Source: Thermoleophilia bacterium
Lineage (GTDB): Bacteria; Actinomycetota; Thermoleophilia; Miltoncostaeales; Miltoncostaeaceae
Length of the DNA stretch: 32,434 nucleotides
NCBI GenBank assembly: GCA_016780995.1
Contig: JADHKZ010000011.1
Location: forward strand, 1 to 32,434
Reading direction: 5' to 3'
Part shown: positions 5,034-15,245 of the stretch, one piece after another
How the letters are laid out: every line of letters starts with the position of its first letter
Numbering within the stretch: position 1 is the first letter of the stretch
Notes under the pieces: model-generated
Seen by the model: the letters and a program-made list of their open reading frames with translations, nothing else
The model's database searches: none
Told to the model about the DNA's origin: nothing
Made by a program: the position numbers and the translations under genes

Positions 5034-7243
5034 GCGTCCAGCAGCCTGGGCATGTCGGGGAACGCCTGCCGCACGGCGGCTCCCAGCAGCACGTGCTCGG
5101 GGTGCTCCAGGCGGGGATCGCGCTCCAGCGCCACCTTGGCGATGCGCCGCGCCTGCGCGAGCGAGTGCCGATCGCGCGACAGGCGCGCGAAGCGCAGGTC
5201 AGTAGGGCCCGACTGCCGGAGCCCCATGATGCTGCCCTCGCCGCGGATGTCCAGGTCGATGTCCGCCAGCCGGAAGCCATCGCCCGTCTGCACCAGGGCC
5301 TCCAGGCGCCGCACGCCGTCCTCGGATGCCGGCTCGGCGAACACCAGGCAGGTCCCGGGGTGCTCGCCGCGCCCCACGCGCCCGCGCAACTGGTGCAGTT
5401 GCGCCAGCCCGAACCGGTCGGCGTCCTCGATGAGCATGACCGTGGCGTTGGGCACGTCGATGCCCACCTCCACCACGGTGGTGGCCACCAGCAGGTCGGT
5501 GTCGCCCGCGGCGAACGCGGCCATGGCCGCGCGGCGCTCGTCGGGCTTCTGCGCACCGTGGGCCAGGCCCACGCGGAAGTCGCGGAACGGGCCGTCGACA
5601 AGGCGCGCGGCCTCCTGCACCGCGGAGCGCGCATCCGTCCCGGCATCGCCCTCCGTCACCAGCGGGCAGATCACATAGGCCTGCCGGCCGGCGCGCAGTT
5701 CCGATCGCACCTGCTCGTAGGCGTGGTCGCGCTGGTCCTCGTGCACCCACTGGGTGGCGATCTCCTGCCGGCCAGGTGGCCGCCCACGGATGGCCGACAC
5801 GCGCAGGTCGCCGTACGCCGTGAGCGCCAGGGTGCGCGGGATGGGCGTGGCGGTCATGTAGAGCAGGTGGGCCGCGTCGGCGCCGTCACCCGCCTGCTCC
5901 GCCAGCGCCTGCCGCTGCTCCACCCCGAACCGGTGCTGCTCGTCCACCACCACCAGCCCCAGCCGATGGAACCGCACTCCGCCCACCAGCAGCGCCTGGG
6001 TGCCCACCACCACCGGCGCGGTGCCCGTGGCCACGGCCATCTCGCGCCGCTCGCGCTCGGCCCGGGGCACGTTGCCCGTGATGAGCACGGGAGCGATGCC
6101 CGCGGGTGCCAGCAGCTGGTCGAGGGTGCGCAGGTGCTGCTCGGCCAGGGTCTCGGTGGGCACGAGGATGGCGGCCTGGGCGCCGGCCTCCACGGCCTGC
6201 GCGCAGGCCAGCGCCGCCACCACGGTCTTCCCCGCCCCCACCTCGCCTTGCAGCAGGCGGCGCATGGGCCGCGGACGCGCCAGGTCGCGCGCCACCTGGC
6301 GCGCCACCCTCTCCTGCTCGCCGGTGAGGGTGAACGGCAGGCCCTCTCGCACCTTCGAGGTGATCTCCCCCGTCGGCGTGAGCGCCTGCGCGCGCCGTGC
6401 GGTCTCCTCGTGGCGCCGCACGGCGATGAGGCCCAGCTGCAGCACCAGGAGTTCCTCGAACGCCAGCCGGCGACGCGCCGAGCGCGGCTCGCGGGCGGAC
6501 CGGGGGAAGTGCATGGCCATCAGCGCGTCGGCCCGCGTGGGCAGTGACACCCGGGCGCGTATCCACGCCGGCAGCAGCTCGGGGGCGGCCGGCACGTACG
6601 GGCGCGCGGCGTCCACCATCTCCCGCAGCTTCCGGGCGGGCAGGTCCTCGGTGGCCGGGTACACCGGCACCAGGCCCTCCGTGTGCACGCCCGCCGAGGC
6701 CCCCGCGCCCAGCACCTCGTGCGCCCGCGCCGTGACCTGGCGCTGGGGCTTGAGCGCCACCTGGCCCCGGATCATCATCTGGTCGCCCGGCTGCAGCGCC
6801 TCGGCCAGGTAGGCCTGGTTGAACCACACCACGGTGATGGCCCCGGTGTCGTCATGCACCCGGGCCCGCACGATGCGCAACCTGCGCCTGCGGGTGGGCA
6901 CCACGGCGATGGAATCCAGCTCCACGCGGATGGTGGCCTCCTCGCCATCGGCCAGGTCGGCGATGGCGCGCGCGCTGTCGTAGGCCAGGTAGCGCGATGG
7001 CAGGTGCTCGGCCAGCTCGCCGATGTCGTGCAGGCCGATGGCGGCTGCCCTGCGCCGGGTGGCGTCGCCCACGCCGGGCAGCACCCCCAGGGGCTCGCGC
7101 CACCAGCCGGGGCCCGGACGCTGCGGACGCGCATGCCGCCCGGCCGAGGCGCGAGCCACCCCGAATGCGTCGCCCGGCACGCTCACGCTGGCAACCGGCG
7201 CCCGGTTGTGGCATCGTGCCCGGGTCGTGGCGCCCGGCGCCAT
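5030..7243 (-). CDS. recG: ATP-dependent DNA helicase RecG
   Basis: RecG is the SF2 helicase that regresses stalled forks and branch-migrates Holliday junctions. The order of parts is typical: an N-terminal helical segment with [15 protein letters not shown], the OB-fold wedge (about residues 100-165), Walker A GEVGAGKT (333-340), DEQH (434-437), [12 protein letters not shown], and a helicase C domain with [15 protein letters not shown] and QLRGRVGRG. The longest frame (737 aa) starts at 7243, but the first 22-28 residues have no family character. GTG starts at 7186, 7180 or 7159 are equally possible. The gene diverges from rpmB; the FakA/DAK2-type gene often found between rpmB and recG is missing. 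Confidence 0.96.
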
Positions 7244-7476: not shown

Positions 7477-7982
7477 GACCGGCGCGCCCCTCCCGGGCCC
7501 ATCGCCCGGGCGGCTGCCAGCAGGTTGATCATCGACACGGCCGCATCGGCGGCCTCGTCACCCTTGTTGCCCTTGTCCCCTCCCGCGCGCGCCGTGGCCT
7601 GGACCATGGTGTCGCACGTGAGGATGCCGAAGGCACACGGCACCCCGGTGTCCAGCGACACGCGCATGAGCCCGTGGGCCGACGCGTCGCAGACGTACTC
7701 GAAGTGCGCGGTCTCGCCGCGGATCACGGCCCCCAGGGCCATGATGGCCGCGTAGCGCCCGGTGGCCGCCAGGGCGGCTGCCGCGGCCGGGGCCTCGTAC
7801 GCCCCCGGGATCCAGTGCACGTCCACGCGCTCGGCGGGCAGGCCGCTCTCGCCCAGGCGCTCAACCGCGCCATCCAGTAGGGCCTGCGCCACCCCGCGGT
7901 GGAAGCCAGCCACCACGGCGGCCACGCGGACGTCGTCTACCTGCAGGCGCTCGGCGGGCGGCGCGGGATCGGTGCGGGCCAT
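7473..7982 (-). CDS. ribH: Riboflavin synthase beta subunit (lumazine synthase)
   Basis: RibH condenses 5-amino-6-ribitylaminouracil with 3,4-dihydroxybutanone 4-phosphate to form 6,7-dimethyl-8-ribityllumazine, usually in 60-mer or pentamer shells. The motifs are [20 protein letters not shown] (59-65), [16 protein letters not shown] with the catalytic H93, and [16 protein letters not shown] chose ATG 7980-7982 because the 169-aa product matches family length. The frame is open further but without homology. The other rib genes end 4.2 kb away at 12239, so this gene seems to need its own promoter. TAGCCT lies 8 bases before the start and there is no ribosome site, suggesting a leaderless message. 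Confidence 0.95.
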
Positions 7983-7990
7983 GGACGTGA

Positions 7991-7996
7991 AGGCTA
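7991..7996 (-). promoter_or_regulatory. Predicted -10 of a leaderless ribH transcript
   Basis: TAGCCT on the minus strand ends 8 bases before the ribH ATG, and no Shine-Dalgarno sequence is present. Transcription would begin at or next to the A of ATG. The same 66-base divergent region must also serve the hydrolase on the plus strand, where CACACT (8037-8042) lies 6 bases before its GTG. Confidence 0.45.
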
Positions 7997-8048
7997 CGCG
8001 GCACCCCGGCCGCATCGGCGGGGTGCGGCCATCTGCCACACTCGCGGC

Positions 8049-9887
8049 GTGCCGCGCATCCGCCCATTCCTTGCCCTCGCCGCCGCGGCCTGTGTCGCGC
8101 TCACCGCGGCCGCCACGGGCGCGGCCGATCCCATCGCCTTCAGCACCTGCAAGGGCCGCGCCCCCGTGCAGTGCGGCACCCTCACGGTGCCACTCGACCG
8201 CGCCGATCCCGCCAAGGGCACGCTGCGGCTGGCCGTGGAGCGACTGCCGGCCCGGCAGGCACGTCGCGGCGTGATGGTGCTGCTGGCGGGAGGTCCCGGC
8301 CAGGCCGGCACGCCCATCAGCCCCGACGACCCGGTGGCCGCGGCCATCCCCGGGTTCGACCTGGTGATGCTGGACCAGCGTGGCACGGGCAAGGGCGCCC
8401 TGCGCTGCCGGGCGCTCGACACGCCGGACTCATCTGAGACACCGGACGCCGTGGGGCGCTGCGCAACCCAGGTGGGCCCCAACCGGGCCTTCTACACCAC
8501 GCAGGACAGCGTGAGGGACCTCGACGACCTCCGCGCGGGCCTTGGCGCCGAGTCGTTCGCGCTGGGCGGCATCTCGTACGGCACGTACGTCTCGCAGTAC
8601 TACGCGCAGCAGTTCCCGTCGCGCGTGAGCCACCTGGTGCTCGACTCCGTGGTGGACCCGGCCACGCTCAATGGCATCAAGGTGCCGTTCTTCCAGTCGG
8701 CCACGCCCGTGCTCAACGACCTGTGCGCGAAGGGGCGGTGCCGCGGGGTGACCCCCGATCCGGTGGGTGATCTGGCGGCGCTGGTGCAGGCCACCGCCGC
8801 AGCACCCCTGCGCGGCAACCGCAGCACGGCATCCGGGAAGGTGGTGCGGTCGTCGGTCGGCGGGCCCGGCAACCAGGGGGACCTGCCCGCGCTGATGGCG
8901 GTGGGTGATCTCGACTCCACCACGCGCGCGCTGTGGCCGGGCGCGGCGCGCGCCGCCCGACAGGGCGACGCCGCCCCGATGCTGCGCCTCCTCACGTTGG
9001 CATCGGGCGGATCCGCGCCGCCGCCCACCGAGATCTCGAGCGCGCTGTTCTACGCCACCACCTGCGCCGACTCGGCGCTGCCCTGGACCAGCGCCACGCC
9101 CGTCGCCGATCGCCCCGCGTTGCTGCGCGGCCGGGCCGACGCCCTGGGCGCGGGCATGTTCGCGCCGTTCAGCGTGGACGTCGCGGTGGCCAGTTCCATC
9201 GCGGATTCATGCCGCCTCTGGCCCGAGGCATCGGTGGACCCCCTCCAGGTGGGCCCCCTGCCCGCGGTGCCCACCCTCCTGCTCGACGGCGGACAGGACA
9301 TGCGCACGCCGGTGGCATCGGCGCGCGCCGTGGCGGCGCGGTCATCGCAGCCGTCCCTGGTCATCGCGGCGGGCGCGGGGCACTCACTCCTCTACTCGTA
9401 TTCCTGCGCCCAGCGGCAACTGCGCAACCTCCTCTACGGCCGAGCCGTATCGGCCACGGCATGCAACCGCGAGGCTCCGGTGCCCACGGCCATCCCCGTG
9501 CCCCCGGCCACCCTCGGACAGGTGGCGCCCGCGGGCGCGCCCGGCACGGCGGGACGCGTGGCCCGCGCCGCCCGGCTCACCGTGCGCGACGGCGTGCTGG
9601 CCATGGACGCGGCCACCGGATCGGGGCTTGCCGCCCTGCCCGGGATCCGCGGTGGCCTGGCGCGGCAGCGCGGCGTCCTGGGCGAATCCATCTCCTACTC
9701 GCGCTTCAGCGCCGTGAAGGGCGTGCGCATCACGGGCACCCTGCGCTTCAACGGGTCCACCTTCCAGGGCGCGCTGCGGGTGGATGGTCCTGGGGCGTGG
9801 GACGGCACGCTCTACCTGGCGCGGGGAGGCGAGCGTGCCTACTCGGGCTCCATCGGCGGCGTGCCGGTGCGCATTCCCCTGGGCTAG
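8049..9887 (+). CDS. Secreted alpha/beta hydrolase (S33/TAP type) with extra C-terminal domain
   Basis: This is an exported serine hydrolase of the proline-iminopeptidase/tripeptidyl-aminopeptidase (S33) type, probably releasing short peptides or cleaving esters outside the cell; the substrate is unknown. The GTG start gives a signal peptide (MPRIRPFLALAAAACVALTA, cleavage near AATGA-ADP). Visible parts are the oxyanion loop LAGGPGQ (79-85), the nucleophile elbow G-I-S176-Y-G, acid D417 in DGGQDMRTP and base H445 in GAGHSLL. Cysteine pairs suit an oxidising location. Residues 475-612 form a Pro/Ala linker plus a Gly-rich, beta-like domain (RITGTLRFNGSTF to YSGSIGGVPVRI) that I do not recognise. 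There is no ribosome site before GTG 8049, so it may be leaderless. It converges on the next gene with 16 bases between them. Confidence 0.85.
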   Translation: MPRIRPFLALAAAACVALTAAATGAADPIAFSTCKGRAPVQCGTLTVPLDRADPAKGTLRLAVERLPARQARRGVMVLLAGGPGQAGTPISPDDPVAAAIPGFDLVMLDQRGTGKGALRCRALDTPDSSETPDAVGRCATQVGPNRAFYTTQDSVRDLDDLRAGLGAESFALGGISYGTYVSQYYAQQFPSRVSHLVLDSVVDPATLNGIKVPFFQSATPVLNDLCAKGRCRGVTPDPVGDLAALVQATAAAPLRGNRSTASGKVVRSSVGGPGNQGDLPALMAVGDLDSTTRALWPGAARAARQGDAAPMLRLLTLASGGSAPPPTEISSALFYATTCADSALPWTSATPVADRPALLRGRADALGAGMFAPFSVDVAVASSIADSCRLWPEASVDPLQVGPLPAVPTLLLDGGQDMRTPVASARAVAARSSQPSLVIAAGAGHSLLYSYSCAQRQLRNLLYGRAVSATACNREAPVPTAIPVPPATLGQVAPAGAPGTAGRVARAARLTVRDGVLAMDAATGSGLAALPGIRGGLARQRGVLGESISYSRFSAVKGVRITGTLRFNGSTFQGALRVDGPGAWDGTLYLARGGERAYSGSIGGVPVRIPLG

Positions 9888-9903: not shown

Positions 9904-11664
9904 CTAGTGCGCGTGCGCTGACACGTGGAGGCGGGCGCCCACGGCCACGCCCGCGAGCAGCAGGATGATCCCGGCGGCCTGCCAGGCACCCACGGGGCTC
10001 TCGCCCCATGCAAGCGCGGCAAGCACGGCGATGGGCGGCGCCAGCACCTCGAACAGCGCCACGCGCGTGGCGCCCAGGAGCGGCACCGCCCACGTGGCCA
10101 CCAGGATGGGCACCAGCGCGCCCAGGATGGCCACGTAGAGGATGCCCCCGAGCACGGCCTCGTTGGCCCACAGGTTGGTGCCCGGGAGCACGCCCAGCGC
10201 CGCCGCCAGCACTGCCGCGCACGCGGCTGCCACGGCGAACGTGGCGGCCACGGTCGGCCCCGTCCCGGCCTGTTGCCTGCACGCGAGCAGCGCGAGGAGC
10301 AGGATCGCGGTGCATGTCGATGAGCCGATGCCCAGCCACAGGCCCTCGGCGCCCAGGCCCGACAGCCAGCCGTCGCCCGGCGTGATGGCGTAGAAGCCCA
10401 CCAGCACCAACGCCAGGCTGCCCAGCACCGCCGCCGACACGCGCACCTGCCGTCGGGCCATTCCCACCGCCAGCAGCATCACCGGGGCCAGGCTGGCCAG
10501 CACGATGGCGCGGGTCACCTCGATATACGAGAGCGACATGAGGAACAACTCCTCCGCGCCGAAGGTGGCCGCGCCCGCCACCGCGGCCCAGGCCCACCAG
10601 CGGCCACCGGCCGATCGCACCGCGGCGACGTGCCCCCGGAGCCCGGTGCCCGCGAGCGCCCCCAACGTCACCACCAGCGCCATCAGCGTCCCCACCAACG
10701 TCACCTGCGCCTTGGGCACCACCACGATGAGCTCCGGCGCCACGATCGCCTCGCTCAGCCCCAGGGCCAGCCCGCCGCCCGCGAGCAGGCCCACGGCCAG
10801 GCCCAGGGTGGGCCGGGCCGGCACGGCGCCGGGCTCGCCCGAACCGATGGCACCGATGGCCATCAGCCCCACGGCCATCACCAACACGGCGGTCTGGTAG
10901 CTGAGCGACCGTGAGGTGACGTCATCGCCCCCAAAGGGTCCCCCTCCCTGCATCACCGTGGCGGCGGTGAACCCGAACACCAGCAGCGACGTGATGGCCG
11001 CCCCGCGCGGGCCCGCGCGCCCGGCCACCAGCGCCGCCACCAGGAGCAGCACGAGCAGCAGGCCGCCCCATTCGTCGGAGAACACGGCGTACGAGAGGCC
11101 CGCGACCGCCGCCAGCCCCACCGCCGCCTCCACAAGGCGTGGCCCGGGGATGGGGTCGCGCCACCGCCTGCCCAGCACCGTGACGGCGCCGCCCACCACC
11201 AGGAACCCGGTGGCCGTGGACAGGATCCACAGCGCCACCACGCTGCCCGTGGCGCCCTCCTCGGTGGATCCGATCGCCAGCAGCGTGGCGATGCCCAGTG
11301 CGCCCAGGGGAATGGCCGCGACCAGGCTGCCGGCCACGAAGCGCGCCACGTCGCGCAGGCGGCCCAGGCGGGTATCCGTGCCCAGCCGGTGGATGGCCCA
11401 TGCGGCCATCACCACGGCGAGCGCGTTGATGAGCACGATCGGCACCGATGCCGCGCTGAGCGGCCCATAGGCGGGGGCGGCAGCCATGCCGCCCACCACC
11501 AGTGCCGGCCACAGCCCGATGCCCCCGATCAGCAGGCCGGCCAGCCCAATGCCACCTGGCACCCAGATGCCGGCCACTCCGCTTCCGGGGCTCGACGTGA
11601 GCGCCGACAGGCCGTCCGCAGCGCCGAACGCCGCGCCCAGCAGCACCAGCCTCACCCCCCACAC
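9904..11664 (-). CDS. Fusion of a MASE1-like membrane domain with an EamA/DMT transporter
   Basis: This is a polytopic membrane protein of about 586 aa. The C-terminal half (about 275-580) is a 10-helix EamA (drug/metabolite transporter) domain. Its end, LFEVLAPPIAVLAALAWGES followed by AAGIILLLAGVAVG, is the family's typical last-helix pattern, and the first repeat has SYIEVTRAIVLASLAPVMLLA. The N-terminal half (about 5-235) has some eight helices; GIWVPGGIGLAGLLIGGIG and WPALVVGGMAA look like the MASE1 sensor domain. MASE1 usually precedes kinase or GGDEF outputs, so joining it to a transporter is unusual. Start codons are uncertain: GTG 11664, 11655 and 11646 all fit the first helix, and the frame is open up to 11862. 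Substrate and direction are unknown. Confidence 0.75.
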   Translation of the reverse strand: MWGVRLVLLGAAFGAADGLSALTSSPGSGVAGIWVPGGIGLAGLLIGGIGLWPALVVGGMAAAPAYGPLSAASVPIVLINALAVVMAAWAIHRLGTDTRLGRLRDVARFVAGSLVAAIPLGALGIATLLAIGSTEEGATGSVVALWILSTATGFLVVGGAVTVLGRRWRDPIPGPRLVEAAVGLAAVAGLSYAVFSDEWGGLLLVLLLVAALVAGRAGPRGAAITSLLVFGFTAATVMQGGGPFGGDDVTSRSLSYQTAVLVMAVGLMAIGAIGSGEPGAVPARPTLGLAVGLLAGGGLALGLSEAIVAPELIVVVPKAQVTLVGTLMALVVTLGALAGTGLRGHVAAVRSAGGRWWAWAAVAGAATFGAEELFLMSLSYIEVTRAIVLASLAPVMLLAVGMARRQVRVSAAVLGSLALVLVGFYAITPGDGWLSGLGAEGLWLGIGSSTCTAILLLALLACRQQAGTGPTVAATFAVAAACAAVLAAALGVLPGTNLWANEAVLGGILYVAILGALVPILVATWAVPLLGATRVALFEVLAPPIAVLAALAWGESPVGAWQAAGIILLLAGVAVGARLHVSAHAH

Positions 11665-11717
11665 GGGCCACCCGCACGCCGGTGTCAGGGGGTAACCCCG
11701 GGGCCGGGCAGCGCGGC

Positions 11718-11740
11718 AGCATAGCCGCGGGGAGTAGCCT
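11718..11740. promoter_or_regulatory. Divergent -10 boxes for the EamA fusion and the lipoprotein
   Basis: TATGCT on the minus strand (11718-11723) and TAGCCT on the plus strand (11735-11740) point away from each other in the gap between the two genes. They predict starts near 11711 and 11747. The plus-strand site would place transcription downstream of the ATG at 11682, which argues against that codon as the lipoprotein start. Confidence 0.4.
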
Positions 11741-11774
11741 CGATCATCAATCCCCGGGAAAGGACCCCCCTCAT

Positions 11775-12227
11775 ACGCGCCAGATCGCTGCCGGCTCCCT
11801 CGTCCTCGTGAGCGCCGTGGCGCTGGCAGGTTGCTTCGGCTCCGACGAGCCCACGCCGGCAACCCCTGCCACCACCCAGGCCGCGCCCGCCACCACCGCC
11901 GCGCCCCCGGCTGACGTGGTGGCCGACTACAAGACGCAGCTCACCGCTGCCGGCTTCTCCATCACCAGCGATGGCGGCGGGGGCGGCGGATGGGGCCAGT
12001 ACGGCGGATCCGACGCCGGCCTCAGCGCCAACAAGGGCACCGAGTGGGTGTCCGTGCAGGCCGGCGGCCAGTCGGGCAGCACCACCTACTTCGAGGTGTG
12101 CGTGGGCCCCAGCAGCACGTCGGTCAGTGACTGCGACAACGCATCGAACGACGACGACCAGGACCAGGGCCAGAACCAGGACGACCAAGGCCAGCAGGAC
12201 AACCAGGACCAGCAGCAGGACGGCTGA
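11775..12227 (+). CDS. Small lipoprotein with Asp/Gln/Asn-rich tail
   Basis: This is a secreted, lipid-anchored protein of unknown function, about 150 aa. A short basic n-region (RQI) and hydrophobic stretch lead to the lipobox L-A-G-C20. A Thr/Ala/Pro linker follows, then a small Gly-rich domain (YKTQLTAAGFSITSDG to TYFEVCVGPSSTSVSDC) with two cysteines, and a 30-residue acidic tail. No ATG, GTG or TTG lies just before the signal sequence. ACG 11775 is the in-frame codon 10 bases after GGGAAAGGA; ATG 11682 would add 31 residues and GTG 11808 would cut the signal. I chose ACG as the best fit, but a sequence error is possible. It converges on ribBA, 11 bases apart. Confidence 0.6.
   Translation, partial: TRQIAAGSLVLVSAVALAGCFGSDEPTPATPATTQAAPATTAAPPADVVADYKTQLTAAGFSITSDGGGGGGWGQYGGSDAGLSANKGTEWVSVQAGGQSGSTTYFEVCVGPSSTSVSDCDNASNDDDQDQGQNQDDQGQQDNQDQQQDG
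12149..12224 (+). repeat. Degenerate CAGGAC-type hexamer repeats in lipoprotein tail
   Basis: The 3' end of the lipoprotein gene is built from repeated units such as CAGGAC, CAGGGC, CAGAAC and CAGCAGGAC. They encode a tail made only of D, Q, N and G. Slipped-strand expansion or contraction in multiples of three bases is likely here, so tail length may vary between strains. Confidence 0.7.
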
Positions 12228-12238
12228 TCGGGGGGCGC

Positions 12239-13486
12239 CTAGTCGCTGCCCCCGGCGTCCAGGTCGAGCCCGTTGTGGTGCAGGATGTGGCCCATCTTGT
12301 CGCGCTTGGTCTGCAGGTAGCGCGCGTTGTGGTCGCCCGGCTCCACCTCGATGGGCACCCGCTCCACCACCTTCAGGCCGTAGCCCTCCAGCCCCACGAT
12401 CTTCTTGGGGTTGTTGGTGAGCTGCCGGATGGTGGAGAGCCCGAGGTCCACCAGGATCTGGGCGCCGATGCCGTAGTCGCGAAGATCGGCGGGGAAGCCC
12501 AGCTCCAGGTTGGCCTCCACGGTGTCGCGGCCGGCGTCCTGCAGCTCATAGGCGCGCAGCTTGTTGATGAGGCCGATGCCACGGCCCTCCTGCGCGATGT
12601 ACAGCAGCACGCCCTGGCCCTCGGCCTCGATCATCCGCAGCGCGGCGTGAAGCTGGTCGCCGCAGTCGCACCGCAGTGACCCGAACACGTCGCCGGTCAT
12701 GCACTCGGAGTGCACGCGCACCAGCACGTCCTGCTTGCCGGCCACGTCGCCCTTCACCATCGCCATGTGGTGCTTGCCGTCGATCAGCGACGTGTATCCC
12801 ACGGCGGTGAAGTCTCCGTACTCGGTGGGCAGCGGCACGGCCGCACCACGCTCGATGAGGCGCTCGGTGCGGCGCCGGTGCTCGATGAGGTCGGTGATGG
12901 TGATCATCTTCAGCCCGTGCTGCTGCGCGTAGCCGATGAGGTCGTCCACCCGGGCCATCTCGCCGTCGTCCTTCATGATCTCGCAGATCACGCCGGCGGG
13001 GATGAGGCCCGCCATGCGCGCCAGGTCGACCGCCGCCTCGGTGTGGCCCGCGCGCTCCAGCACCCCGCCGGGCTTGGCCCGCAGCGGGAACACGTGGCCG
13101 GGCTTCACCAGGTCGCCCGCGGTGGAGTCGGGGTCGATGGCCACCATGATGGTGCGCGACCGGTCGGGCGCGCTGATTCCGGTGGTGATGCCCTCGCGGG
13201 CCTCGATGCTCTCGGTGAACGCGGTCCCGAGCGGCGTCTCGTTGCGCTTCACCTGCTGCAGCAGGCCCAGCTGCTCGCAGCGCTCCTCGGTGAGCGCCAG
13301 GCACACCAGGCCGCGGCCGTGGGTGATCATGAAGTTCACGGCGTCGGGCGTGGCGAACTGCCCCGCGATGACCAGGTCGCCCTCGTTCTCGCGGTCCTCG
13401 GAATCCACCACCACCACCATGCGGCCGGCGCGGATGTCCTCGATGGCCTCCTCGATGGAGGAGAACGGGGTGGTCTGGGTGCTCAG
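12239..13486 (-). CDS. ribBA: Bifunctional DHBP synthase / GTP cyclohydrolase II (CTG start)
   Basis: RibBA makes both precursors of riboflavin: 3,4-dihydroxybutanone 4-phosphate from ribulose 5-phosphate (N-terminal RibB) and diaminoribosylamino-pyrimidinone phosphate from GTP (C-terminal RibA). RibB shows [11 protein letters not shown] (28-38), THGRGLVC and [17 protein letters not shown]. RibA shows [20 protein letters not shown], with zinc ligands C262, C273 and C275, plus AQEGRGIGL and LTNNPKK. The usual ATG candidate (13420) would begin five residues before [10 protein letters not shown] and delete the first helix. CTG 13484-13486 restores [20 protein letters not shown], has GGAGG 6 bases upstream and overlaps the ribE stop as CTGA. 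I therefore chose CTG, giving 415 aa. Confidence 0.93.
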
Positions 13487-14094
13487 GAGTGGCCTCCGCC
13501 GTCAGCGTGGGGGCGCACCAGCGCCTCCACGTACTTTGCCACCACATCGGCCTCCAGGTTGACCCTTCGGCCAACGGCATCGGGCCCCAGCGTGGTGGCC
13601 TGCATGGTGTGCGGGATGAGCGCGATGGTGAAGCCATCGGGCTCGCGCGATGCCACGGTGAGGCTCACGCCGTCCACCGTGATGCTGCCCTTCTCCACCA
13701 CGTAGCGCAGCACGTCATCCGGCGCGGCGATGGACATGAGCACGCCGTCGCCCTCCGGCGTGATGGACCTGACCGTGCCGGTGCCATCCACGTGCCCCTG
13801 AACGATGTGACCACCCAGGCGGTCGCCCACGCGCATCGCGCGCTCCAGGTTCACGGTGTCGCCCGCCTGCCGGTCGCCCACCGACGTGCGTCGCAGGGTC
13901 TCCTCCACGCAGTCCACGGCGAAGGCGTCGTGGTCCATGTACACCACGGTCAGGCATGCACCGTTGACCGACACCGAGTCGCCGATGGCCAGGCCGTCAC
14001 GCACCACGTCGCAGGCGATCACCATGCGGGCGCCCGCCGCGCTGGGGGTGCGCTCGCGCACCGTTCCCATCTCCTCCACCAGTCCGGTGAACAC
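13483..14094 (-). CDS. ribE: Riboflavin synthase alpha subunit
   Basis: RibE dismutates two 6,7-dimethyl-8-ribityllumazine molecules into riboflavin and the pyrimidine that RibH reuses. The N-terminus [10 protein letters not shown] is invariant in the family. Two lumazine-binding repeats are visible: [14 protein letters not shown] with ETLRRTSVG, and [14 protein letters not shown] with HTMQATTLG. Between them lies [13 protein letters not shown]. The length, 203 aa, is typical. The start is GTG at 14092-14094, with GGGAGGG about 9 bases upstream inside the end of ribD. The downstream ribBA start overlaps this stop codon. Confidence 0.97.
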
Positions 14095-14099
14095 CTGCG

Positions 14100-15245
14100 T
14101 CAGCCCTCCCCGGGAACGGGCCTCAGACGGCCCATCACCAGTACATCATCGCCCAGCCGCTCCACGCGCGGTGATCGGATGCGCGGGGCGTCGGCGATCT
14201 GGTCGGCGCCATGGCCGCGGGCCGCCATTGGTGCGCCATCGCCGCCGATCACCATCGGCGCCACCACCCACGCCAGCACGTCCACCAGGCCGGCCTCCAG
14301 CATGGCCCCGGCCACCGTGGGGCCGCCCTCCACCAGCACCGACTGCACCTCGCGGGCGCCCAGCGCGTCGAGGGCCTTCGCCAGGAAGTCCGCGCCGTGG
14401 TCGGCGGAGGTCAGGTCCACCTGCGCACCGGCCGCGCGCAGCGCGTCCACCCGCGCGGGATCGGCCGCTGATCCCGCCACCACCAGCACCGGCGCCTGGT
14501 CCAGGCTGCCCAGCAGCGCGCAGTCAGTGGCCAGGCGGGCATGGGGATCCAGCACCACGCGCAGGGCGGCACGGCCATCCGGCACCGGCACGTCGCGCGC
14601 CGTGAGCATGGGGTCGTCGGCCACGGCAGTGCCGATGCCCACGGCCACGGCATCCACCTGCGCCCGCCACCGGTGCACCAGTGCGCGGGCCTCGGGGCCC
14701 GATATCCACCGGGTGTTGCCGGTACGCGTGGCCACGCGGCCGTCCAGCGAGGCCGCCATCTTCAGCATCACCTCCGGGCGCCCGGTGGCGGCCCAGGTGA
14801 GGAAGGCCGACGCCGCCTCGCGCGCGCGAACGGCATCCTCGCCGTCGGCCACGGCCACCTCCAGGCCGGCCTGCTGCAGGATGCGCACGCCCTCGCCCCG
14901 GGTGCGCTCCAGGGGGTCGAGCGTGCCGATGACCACCCGGGTGATGCCGGCGTCGATGACCGCCTGCGTGCACGGCCCCGTGCGCCCGGTGTGCGAGCAG
15001 GGCTCCAGCGTGCACACCAGGGTTGCGCCCCGCGTGGCCTCCCCCGCCGCCGCGATGGCCACGGGCTCGGCATGCGCCAGGCCCGGGCCCTCGTGCCAGC
15101 CCTCGCCCACCACCTGCCCATCACGCATGATCACCGCACCCACCGACGGGTTGGGGCTCACCTGCCCACGCCCGCGCGACGCCAGTTCACATGCCCGGAT
15201 GAGCTGCGTGCGCTCCTCCGTGGTGGGGCGCCCGACGGGGCTCAC
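14100..15245 (-). CDS. ribD: Bifunctional riboflavin deaminase/reductase
   Basis: RibD deaminates the pyrimidine made by RibA and then reduces its ribosyl side chain with NADPH. The N-terminal zinc deaminase shows H58-A-E60 and PCSHTGRTGPC (82-92), with zinc cysteines C83 and C92. The C-terminal reductase begins at KMAASLDGRVA and includes NTRWISGPEAR, VGIGTAVADDPMLTAR and EGGPTVAGAML. The length, 381 aa, is normal. The GTG start (15243-15245) overlaps the rpe stop as GTGA, so expression is coupled to rpe. No FMN-riboswitch-like leader can fit here; any control must act further upstream. Confidence 0.96.
   Translation of the reverse strand: MSPVGRPTTEERTQLIRACELASRGRGQVSPNPSVGAVIMRDGQVVGEGWHEGPGLAHAEPVAIAAAGEATRGATLVCTLEPCSHTGRTGPCTQAVIDAGITRVVIGTLDPLERTRGEGVRILQQAGLEVAVADGEDAVRAREAASAFLTWAATGRPEVMLKMAASLDGRVATRTGNTRWISGPEARALVHRWRAQVDAVAVGIGTAVADDPMLTARDVPVPDGRAALRVVLDPHARLATDCALLGSLDQAPVLVVAGSAADPARVDALRAAGAQVDLTSADHGADFLAKALDALGAREVQSVLVEGGPTVAGAMLEAGLVDVLAWVVAPMVIGGDGAPMAARGHGADQIADAPRIRSPRVERLGDDVLVMGRLRPVPGEG

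Follow-up and report, generated by a model that had tools for sequence, protein, structure and literature searches.

A MASE1 sensor domain joined in one reading frame to an EamA/DMT permease in a restricted lineage of Thermoleophilia

The window, that is, the whole stretch of 32,434 nucleotides analysed here, corresponds to contig C27 of a genome of 1.67 Mb and 96% completeness. Its minus strand carries a gene in which a MASE1 domain is fused to a transporter of the EamA/DMT type, close to three genes of riboflavin synthesis. The gene, the segments of its product and the surrounding genes are as follows.

9904..11664, minus strand: MASE1-EamA fusion gene (type A), 586 amino acids from GTG (reading frame, Pfam, codon use)
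10846..11649, minus strand: MASE1 domain, residues 6-273, with ten hydrophobic segments (Pfam, topology, profile-profile comparison)
10807..10839, minus strand: linker GEPGAVPARPT, predicted to be cytoplasmic (topology analysis)
10381..10806, minus strand: EamA/DMT repeat 1, residues ~287-428, with five hydrophobic segments, divergent (second Pfam EamA stretch and topology; boundaries set by hand)
9940..10344, minus strand: EamA/DMT repeat 2, residues 441-575 (Pfam)
12239..13420, minus strand: ribBA (DHBP synthase and GTP cyclohydrolase II), upstream of the fusion gene and on the same strand
13483..14094, minus strand: riboflavin synthase (ribE)
14100..15245, minus strand: ribD
11757..12227, plus strand: putative lipoprotein whose tail is rich in Q and D, encoded in the interval from ribBA to the fusion gene, start approximate
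7899..9887, plus strand: TAP-like alpha/beta hydrolase, the most frequent neighbour of the fusion gene and transcribed towards it

The fusion is encoded, as the initial annotation had stated, by a single uninterrupted frame. It opens with GTG 11664 and its stop lies at 9904, and codon use in this frame is strongly gene-like (GC3 0.90). The start codon is uncertain: the longest ORF containing the gene spans 9904..11862 on the minus strand, the in-frame extension upstream of GTG 11664, up to 11862, shows no conservation in orthologues, and most orthologues start at an ATG ~16 codons before that GTG, a site at which the window lacks an in-frame ATG. Downstream, the next gene is the convergent alpha/beta hydrolase, in agreement with the earlier statement that no kinase or cyclase follows. 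Within the protein, the only output that follows MASE1 is enzyme-free, namely EamA, with no kinase, cyclase, GGDEF, EAL, phosphatase or soluble domain. The lipoprotein candidate has no match in Pfam.

Both halves of the protein had been named by eye, and both names proved correct. Pfam MASE1 (PF05231) covers residues 6-273 with 72.5 bits against a cut-off of 29.8 (E 4e-20; profile positions 4-294 of 299), and profile-profile comparison of the fused N-terminal half with 30 other MASE1 domains yields 99.8% over 274 columns (E 3e-30). In NCBIfam, the MASE1 part of the kinase EspC matches the same half (E 5e-22). Pfam EamA (PF00892) is detected at residues 441-575 and in a second stretch, with 21.7 bits (E 3e-4), which in the window copy is under the cut-off of 28.2; the EamA score lies above the cut-off in the paralogue described below and in several relatives, loci L013, L058, L060, L061 and L062 exceed the cut-offs of both families, and each of the 11 orthologues in the genus has a match to both. 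Against free EamA proteins, the C-terminal half gives 99.4% over 223 columns in profile-profile comparison (E 3e-21), and weak profile matches connect it to the solved relatives LicB (7b0k) and SLC35B1. Direct comparison of one repeat with the other is weak, though there are two Pfam EamA stretches and segments 11-20 show alternating loop charge. The possibility that MASE1 represents a third EamA-like unit was rejected, the comparison showing no relation, and no arrangement of two EamA halves was found. Because each half matches its own family and MASE1 against EamA gives nothing, the protein is, as judged from its sequence, a MASE1 domain plus a whole DMT permease and not two EamA units.

By alignment-averaged hydropathy, either half of the fusion has ten membrane segments, ~20 in all, and this holds for both subfamilies; ten MASE1 segments have also been proposed for DgcE (PMC6510439). 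The count is corrected from the about 18 helices of the initial annotation to ~20, with 18 to 20 as a fair range, since the second hydrophobic segment is weak and possibly a re-entrant stretch. Arginine and lysine are concentrated in even-numbered loops, so that each half is predicted to have both termini inside, in both subfamilies, which suits a cytoplasmic position of the ~11-residue joint. AlphaFold2 models reached a mean pLDDT of 49 for the whole fusion (nine sequences) and 48 for the EamA half alone (single sequence); neither is usable.

The same architecture, which the initial annotation had proposed to count among genomes, is present at full length in 15 of the 20 genomes of the genus (Thermoleophilia; Miltoncostaeales), with at least one copy each, and in 4 of the 16 genomes of a second family of the same class, listed outside Miltoncostaeales. 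None of the 22 other genomes of the order has a full-length fusion, and no full-length match came up in the remaining genomes among 399 of the class, 396 of the phylum and 394 of another class, searches in which the best three candidates per genome were scored. No match was obtained among plasmids and none among viral contigs, and no prior description of MASE1 and EamA together was found in the open-licence papers searched. The genomes of the close relatives are all metagenome assemblies, under names such as Miltoncostaeales, Thermoleophilia or Actinomycetota bacterium. This draft status, together with the EamA score of the window copy, might be taken to indicate an artefact of assembly or annotation, an idea that deserves practically no credence: the same stop-free joint recurs in 19 genome assemblies, two subfamilies and two bacterial families, and the orthologues refute it. 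On this sequence evidence, the fusion is real and conserved, is restricted to a few lineages among the genomes searched, and combines two known families in an apparently new way. In several genomes of the genus the gene is missing or reduced to remnants: G018 has a type A remnant (L036, G018:C2, about 6562-6722) flanked by ribBA and the hydrolase, and fragments of type B occur in G003 (L115, G003:C72, 4680-4973) and G004. Such decayed copies at or near the usual sites suggest recurrent loss.

In other sampled Actinomycetota, MASE1 precedes a histidine kinase, GGDEF or SpoIIE domain, or is free-standing. All ten other MASE1 proteins that were scanned for output domains carry kinase, GGDEF or phosphatase-type outputs, and separate scans recovered free MASE1 proteins without an output domain in the phylum. 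The latter (L077, L092, L105, L106 and others) are encoded by members of the phylum with large genomes, measure ~340-400 amino acids and end in a charged, helix-like C-terminal tail.

The fusions form two subfamilies, type A, to which the window gene belongs, and type B. Both consist of full fusions, and the source genome encodes one of each. Sequence identity between type B copies and the window protein is 22-26%.

G000 contig C13:1571-3340: type B paralogue, a second, strongly diverged MASE1-EamA fusion (L020, L034), beside a convergent multicopper oxidase gene and with a sigma-factor-like gene nearby

Pfam run alone reports no MASE1 in this type B copy, and a direct MASE1 search gives 19.9 bits (E 2e-4), below the cut-off; the protein aligns over its whole length with copies that match MASE1. 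It is the sole other MASE1 protein found in the source genome, which has one further EamA protein beyond the two fusions. In the tree of the MASE1 half, all fused copies lie on one side of a branch (support 93/98) once two long rows are removed; with these rows included, DgcE intruded among the fused copies. The tree of the EamA half, for which the free EamA comparators were picked by similarity, likewise has a branch that separates the fused copies from all others (support 90/91). Since both half-trees agree in this respect, a single fusion event followed by duplication fits the data, neither support being decisive. In both bacterial families, type B genes lie near an rpoD-like sigma factor gene (named by eye), which argues for common descent. 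Type B converges on a multicopper oxidase gene.

Among close orthologues, dN/dS is 0.16-0.35 in the MASE1 and EamA halves alike; by this measure both halves are under purifying selection, and MASE1 is preserved to about the same degree as the permease. Type A retains many hallmark residues of the domain (W34, P36, W52-P53, N80, R102, D105, W146, E179, R216, P243-F244 and Q257), and comparison with 30 other MASE1 domains shows that further conserved residues are lost, among them the aspartate of the WWxGD motif, which is replaced by T or S. Type B has fewer conserved residues than type A and additionally lacks the conserved N, R, D, E and Q of signalling MASE1. Because the fused domains are without some residues that signalling MASE1 keeps, the original sensing function may have changed or disappeared. 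The loss of several signalling-specific residues would also be expected if MASE1 were merely an inert anchor, dimerisation or turnover element of the permease, and proteolytic turnover of DgcE does need its MASE1 region, yet two LacY helices can substitute for it (PMC6510439). We consider this explanation quite unlikely, given that the MASE1 half is about as conserved as the permease half and that many of its hallmark residues persist in type A.

Type A genes are often situated behind ribD-ribE-ribBA and converge on the TAP-like hydrolase. Six genomes have the gene at this rib site. In G012 and G006 it follows ribBA immediately, in the window, G007, G013 and G015 variable genes intervene, and the copies of G003 and G016 are found elsewhere, beside a helicase-like gene. 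Several known riboflavin transporters were recognised through clustering with rib genes or through an FMN riboswitch (PMC4418817), and the location might accordingly mark type A as a flavin transporter, a claim about substrate that would be compatible with the regulated permease that we favour below. However, no FMN riboswitch was detected in the window (Rfam), in which the fusion differs from the riboflavin transporters RibN and ImpX; spacing and intervening genes vary, and two copies lie away from the rib genes altogether. Moreover, the sequence TATCCT, resembling a -10 element, occurs in five orthologues just ahead of the start codon and suggests that these have their own leaderless promoter. 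A flavin substrate therefore appears very improbable, and neither the rib site of type A nor the neighbourhood of type B points to a particular substrate. No conserved operon partner of the fusion was found.

For two decades MASE1 has been viewed as a sensor that serves kinases and enzymes of cyclic-di-GMP metabolism. What the domain responds to and how it relays the signal have been unclear since it was named, and in the fusion its only covalent partner is a permease. Because this permease is the sole module attached to MASE1, a transporter tuned by MASE1 is the most economical reading. In our estimation there is an even chance that the protein transports a small metabolite through a ten-helix DMT permease and that MASE1, as a membrane-embedded module, regulates this permease. 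The C-terminal half would then be a complete ten-helix permease carrying the metabolite across the membrane, with outward transport or exchange being likelier by analogy with the DMT family. The N-terminal half would serve as a regulatory input or docking module within the membrane, reading membrane or redox state, a ligand or a partner protein, and its state would change the activity, stability or assembly of the permease. The functional proposals of the initial annotation, a ligand-gated exporter or a transport or binding role for MASE1 itself, are reasonable as hypotheses. Compared with ordinary EamA/DMT permeases, the C-terminal half has the same ten segments and two EamA stretches, but those proteins are free and ~300 amino acids long, whereas the fusion has an extra ten-segment sensor domain in front. 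Compared with signalling MASE1 proteins (UhpB, DgcE and YfgF; kinases, SpoIIE and GGDEF/EAL proteins), the N-terminal half matches the whole domain, with about ten segments and many conserved residues, but some of these residues are lost and a ten-helix permease takes the place of the cytoplasmic output.

What has been reported for individual MASE1 proteins fits, by analogy, a docking or input role of the fused domain. UhpB, in which the MASE1 match was confirmed by Pfam (E 2e-16), is a kinase activated by UhpC, a transporter-like sensor of the MFS fold (PMC7607045); RdcA, the activator of DgcE, docks on the MASE1 domain of that protein (PMC6510439); and MASE1 of YfgF acts independently of c-di-GMP and, according to one proposal, favours the excretion of aspartate (PMC3718329). 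The UhpB-UhpC pair of Escherichia coli resembles the fusion in that a MASE1-bearing protein acts with a membrane protein of transporter fold, and differs in comprising two proteins, an MFS instead of a DMT fold and a histidine kinase output. The same precedents admit an alternative in which the EamA half would be a receptor derived from a transporter, with MASE1 as its docking platform, and the protein would pass a signal to another protein in the cytoplasm, in the way that UhpC uses UhpB. In that pair, glucose-6-phosphate is sensed by the MFS homologue UhpC, which interacts with the kinase that bears MASE1. In DgcE, the MASE1 domain brings in a soluble GTPase, and the source genome encodes several GGDEF proteins as possible partners. 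Nevertheless, no conserved kinase, cyclase or RdcA-like GTPase was recognised near any copy in the gene calls and in a restricted series of Pfam scans, and both EamA repeats are retained; we regard a receptor as unlikely.

Free-standing MASE1 proteins share with the fusion the lack of an enzymatic output, but have no permease attached. Their occurrence in the phylum and in 20 genera reported previously (PMC3718329) would accord with MASE1 itself being a substrate-binding or transport module, for example similar to an ECF S-component or with the fold of bile-acid/arsenite transporters, that hands its ligand to the permease or works beside it. Weak matches were obtained to QueT in 2 of 4 free MASE1 proteins scanned (E 8e-4 and 2e-3, below the cut-off) and between the MASE1 profile and SLC10A1 (E 8e-4). 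Neither kinship was upheld: at E 0.1 QueT matches none of the 30 trimmed MASE1 domains, and profile-profile comparison of MASE1 with 21 SBF-family proteins (PF01758) performs no better than with shuffled or reversed columns. With no relation seen between MASE1 and EamA either, such a module seems decidedly unlikely. The QueT family itself was found in none of 148 genomes of the class that holds the free MASE1 proteins.

For a permease regulated by MASE1, the absence of an enzymatic output has a practical side, since with the permease as only partner the function of MASE1 could be read as a change in transport. The fusion further suggests that sensor domains may be recruited for direct control of transporters. 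A broader proposition, which we advance tentatively and with more doubt than conviction, is that MASE1 is at root a sensor for, or coupler to, membrane transporters, of which the fusion would be the covalent case, gated in cis without phosphorylation or second messengers.

Finally, the gene content of the interval between ribBA and the fusion (window 11664-12239, loci L024-L028) varies between genomes in the manner of a small insertion hotspot. In the second family, an EamA-like gene (named by eye) comes next on the same strand after the fusion (L112:5000-6022, L113:8358-9407).
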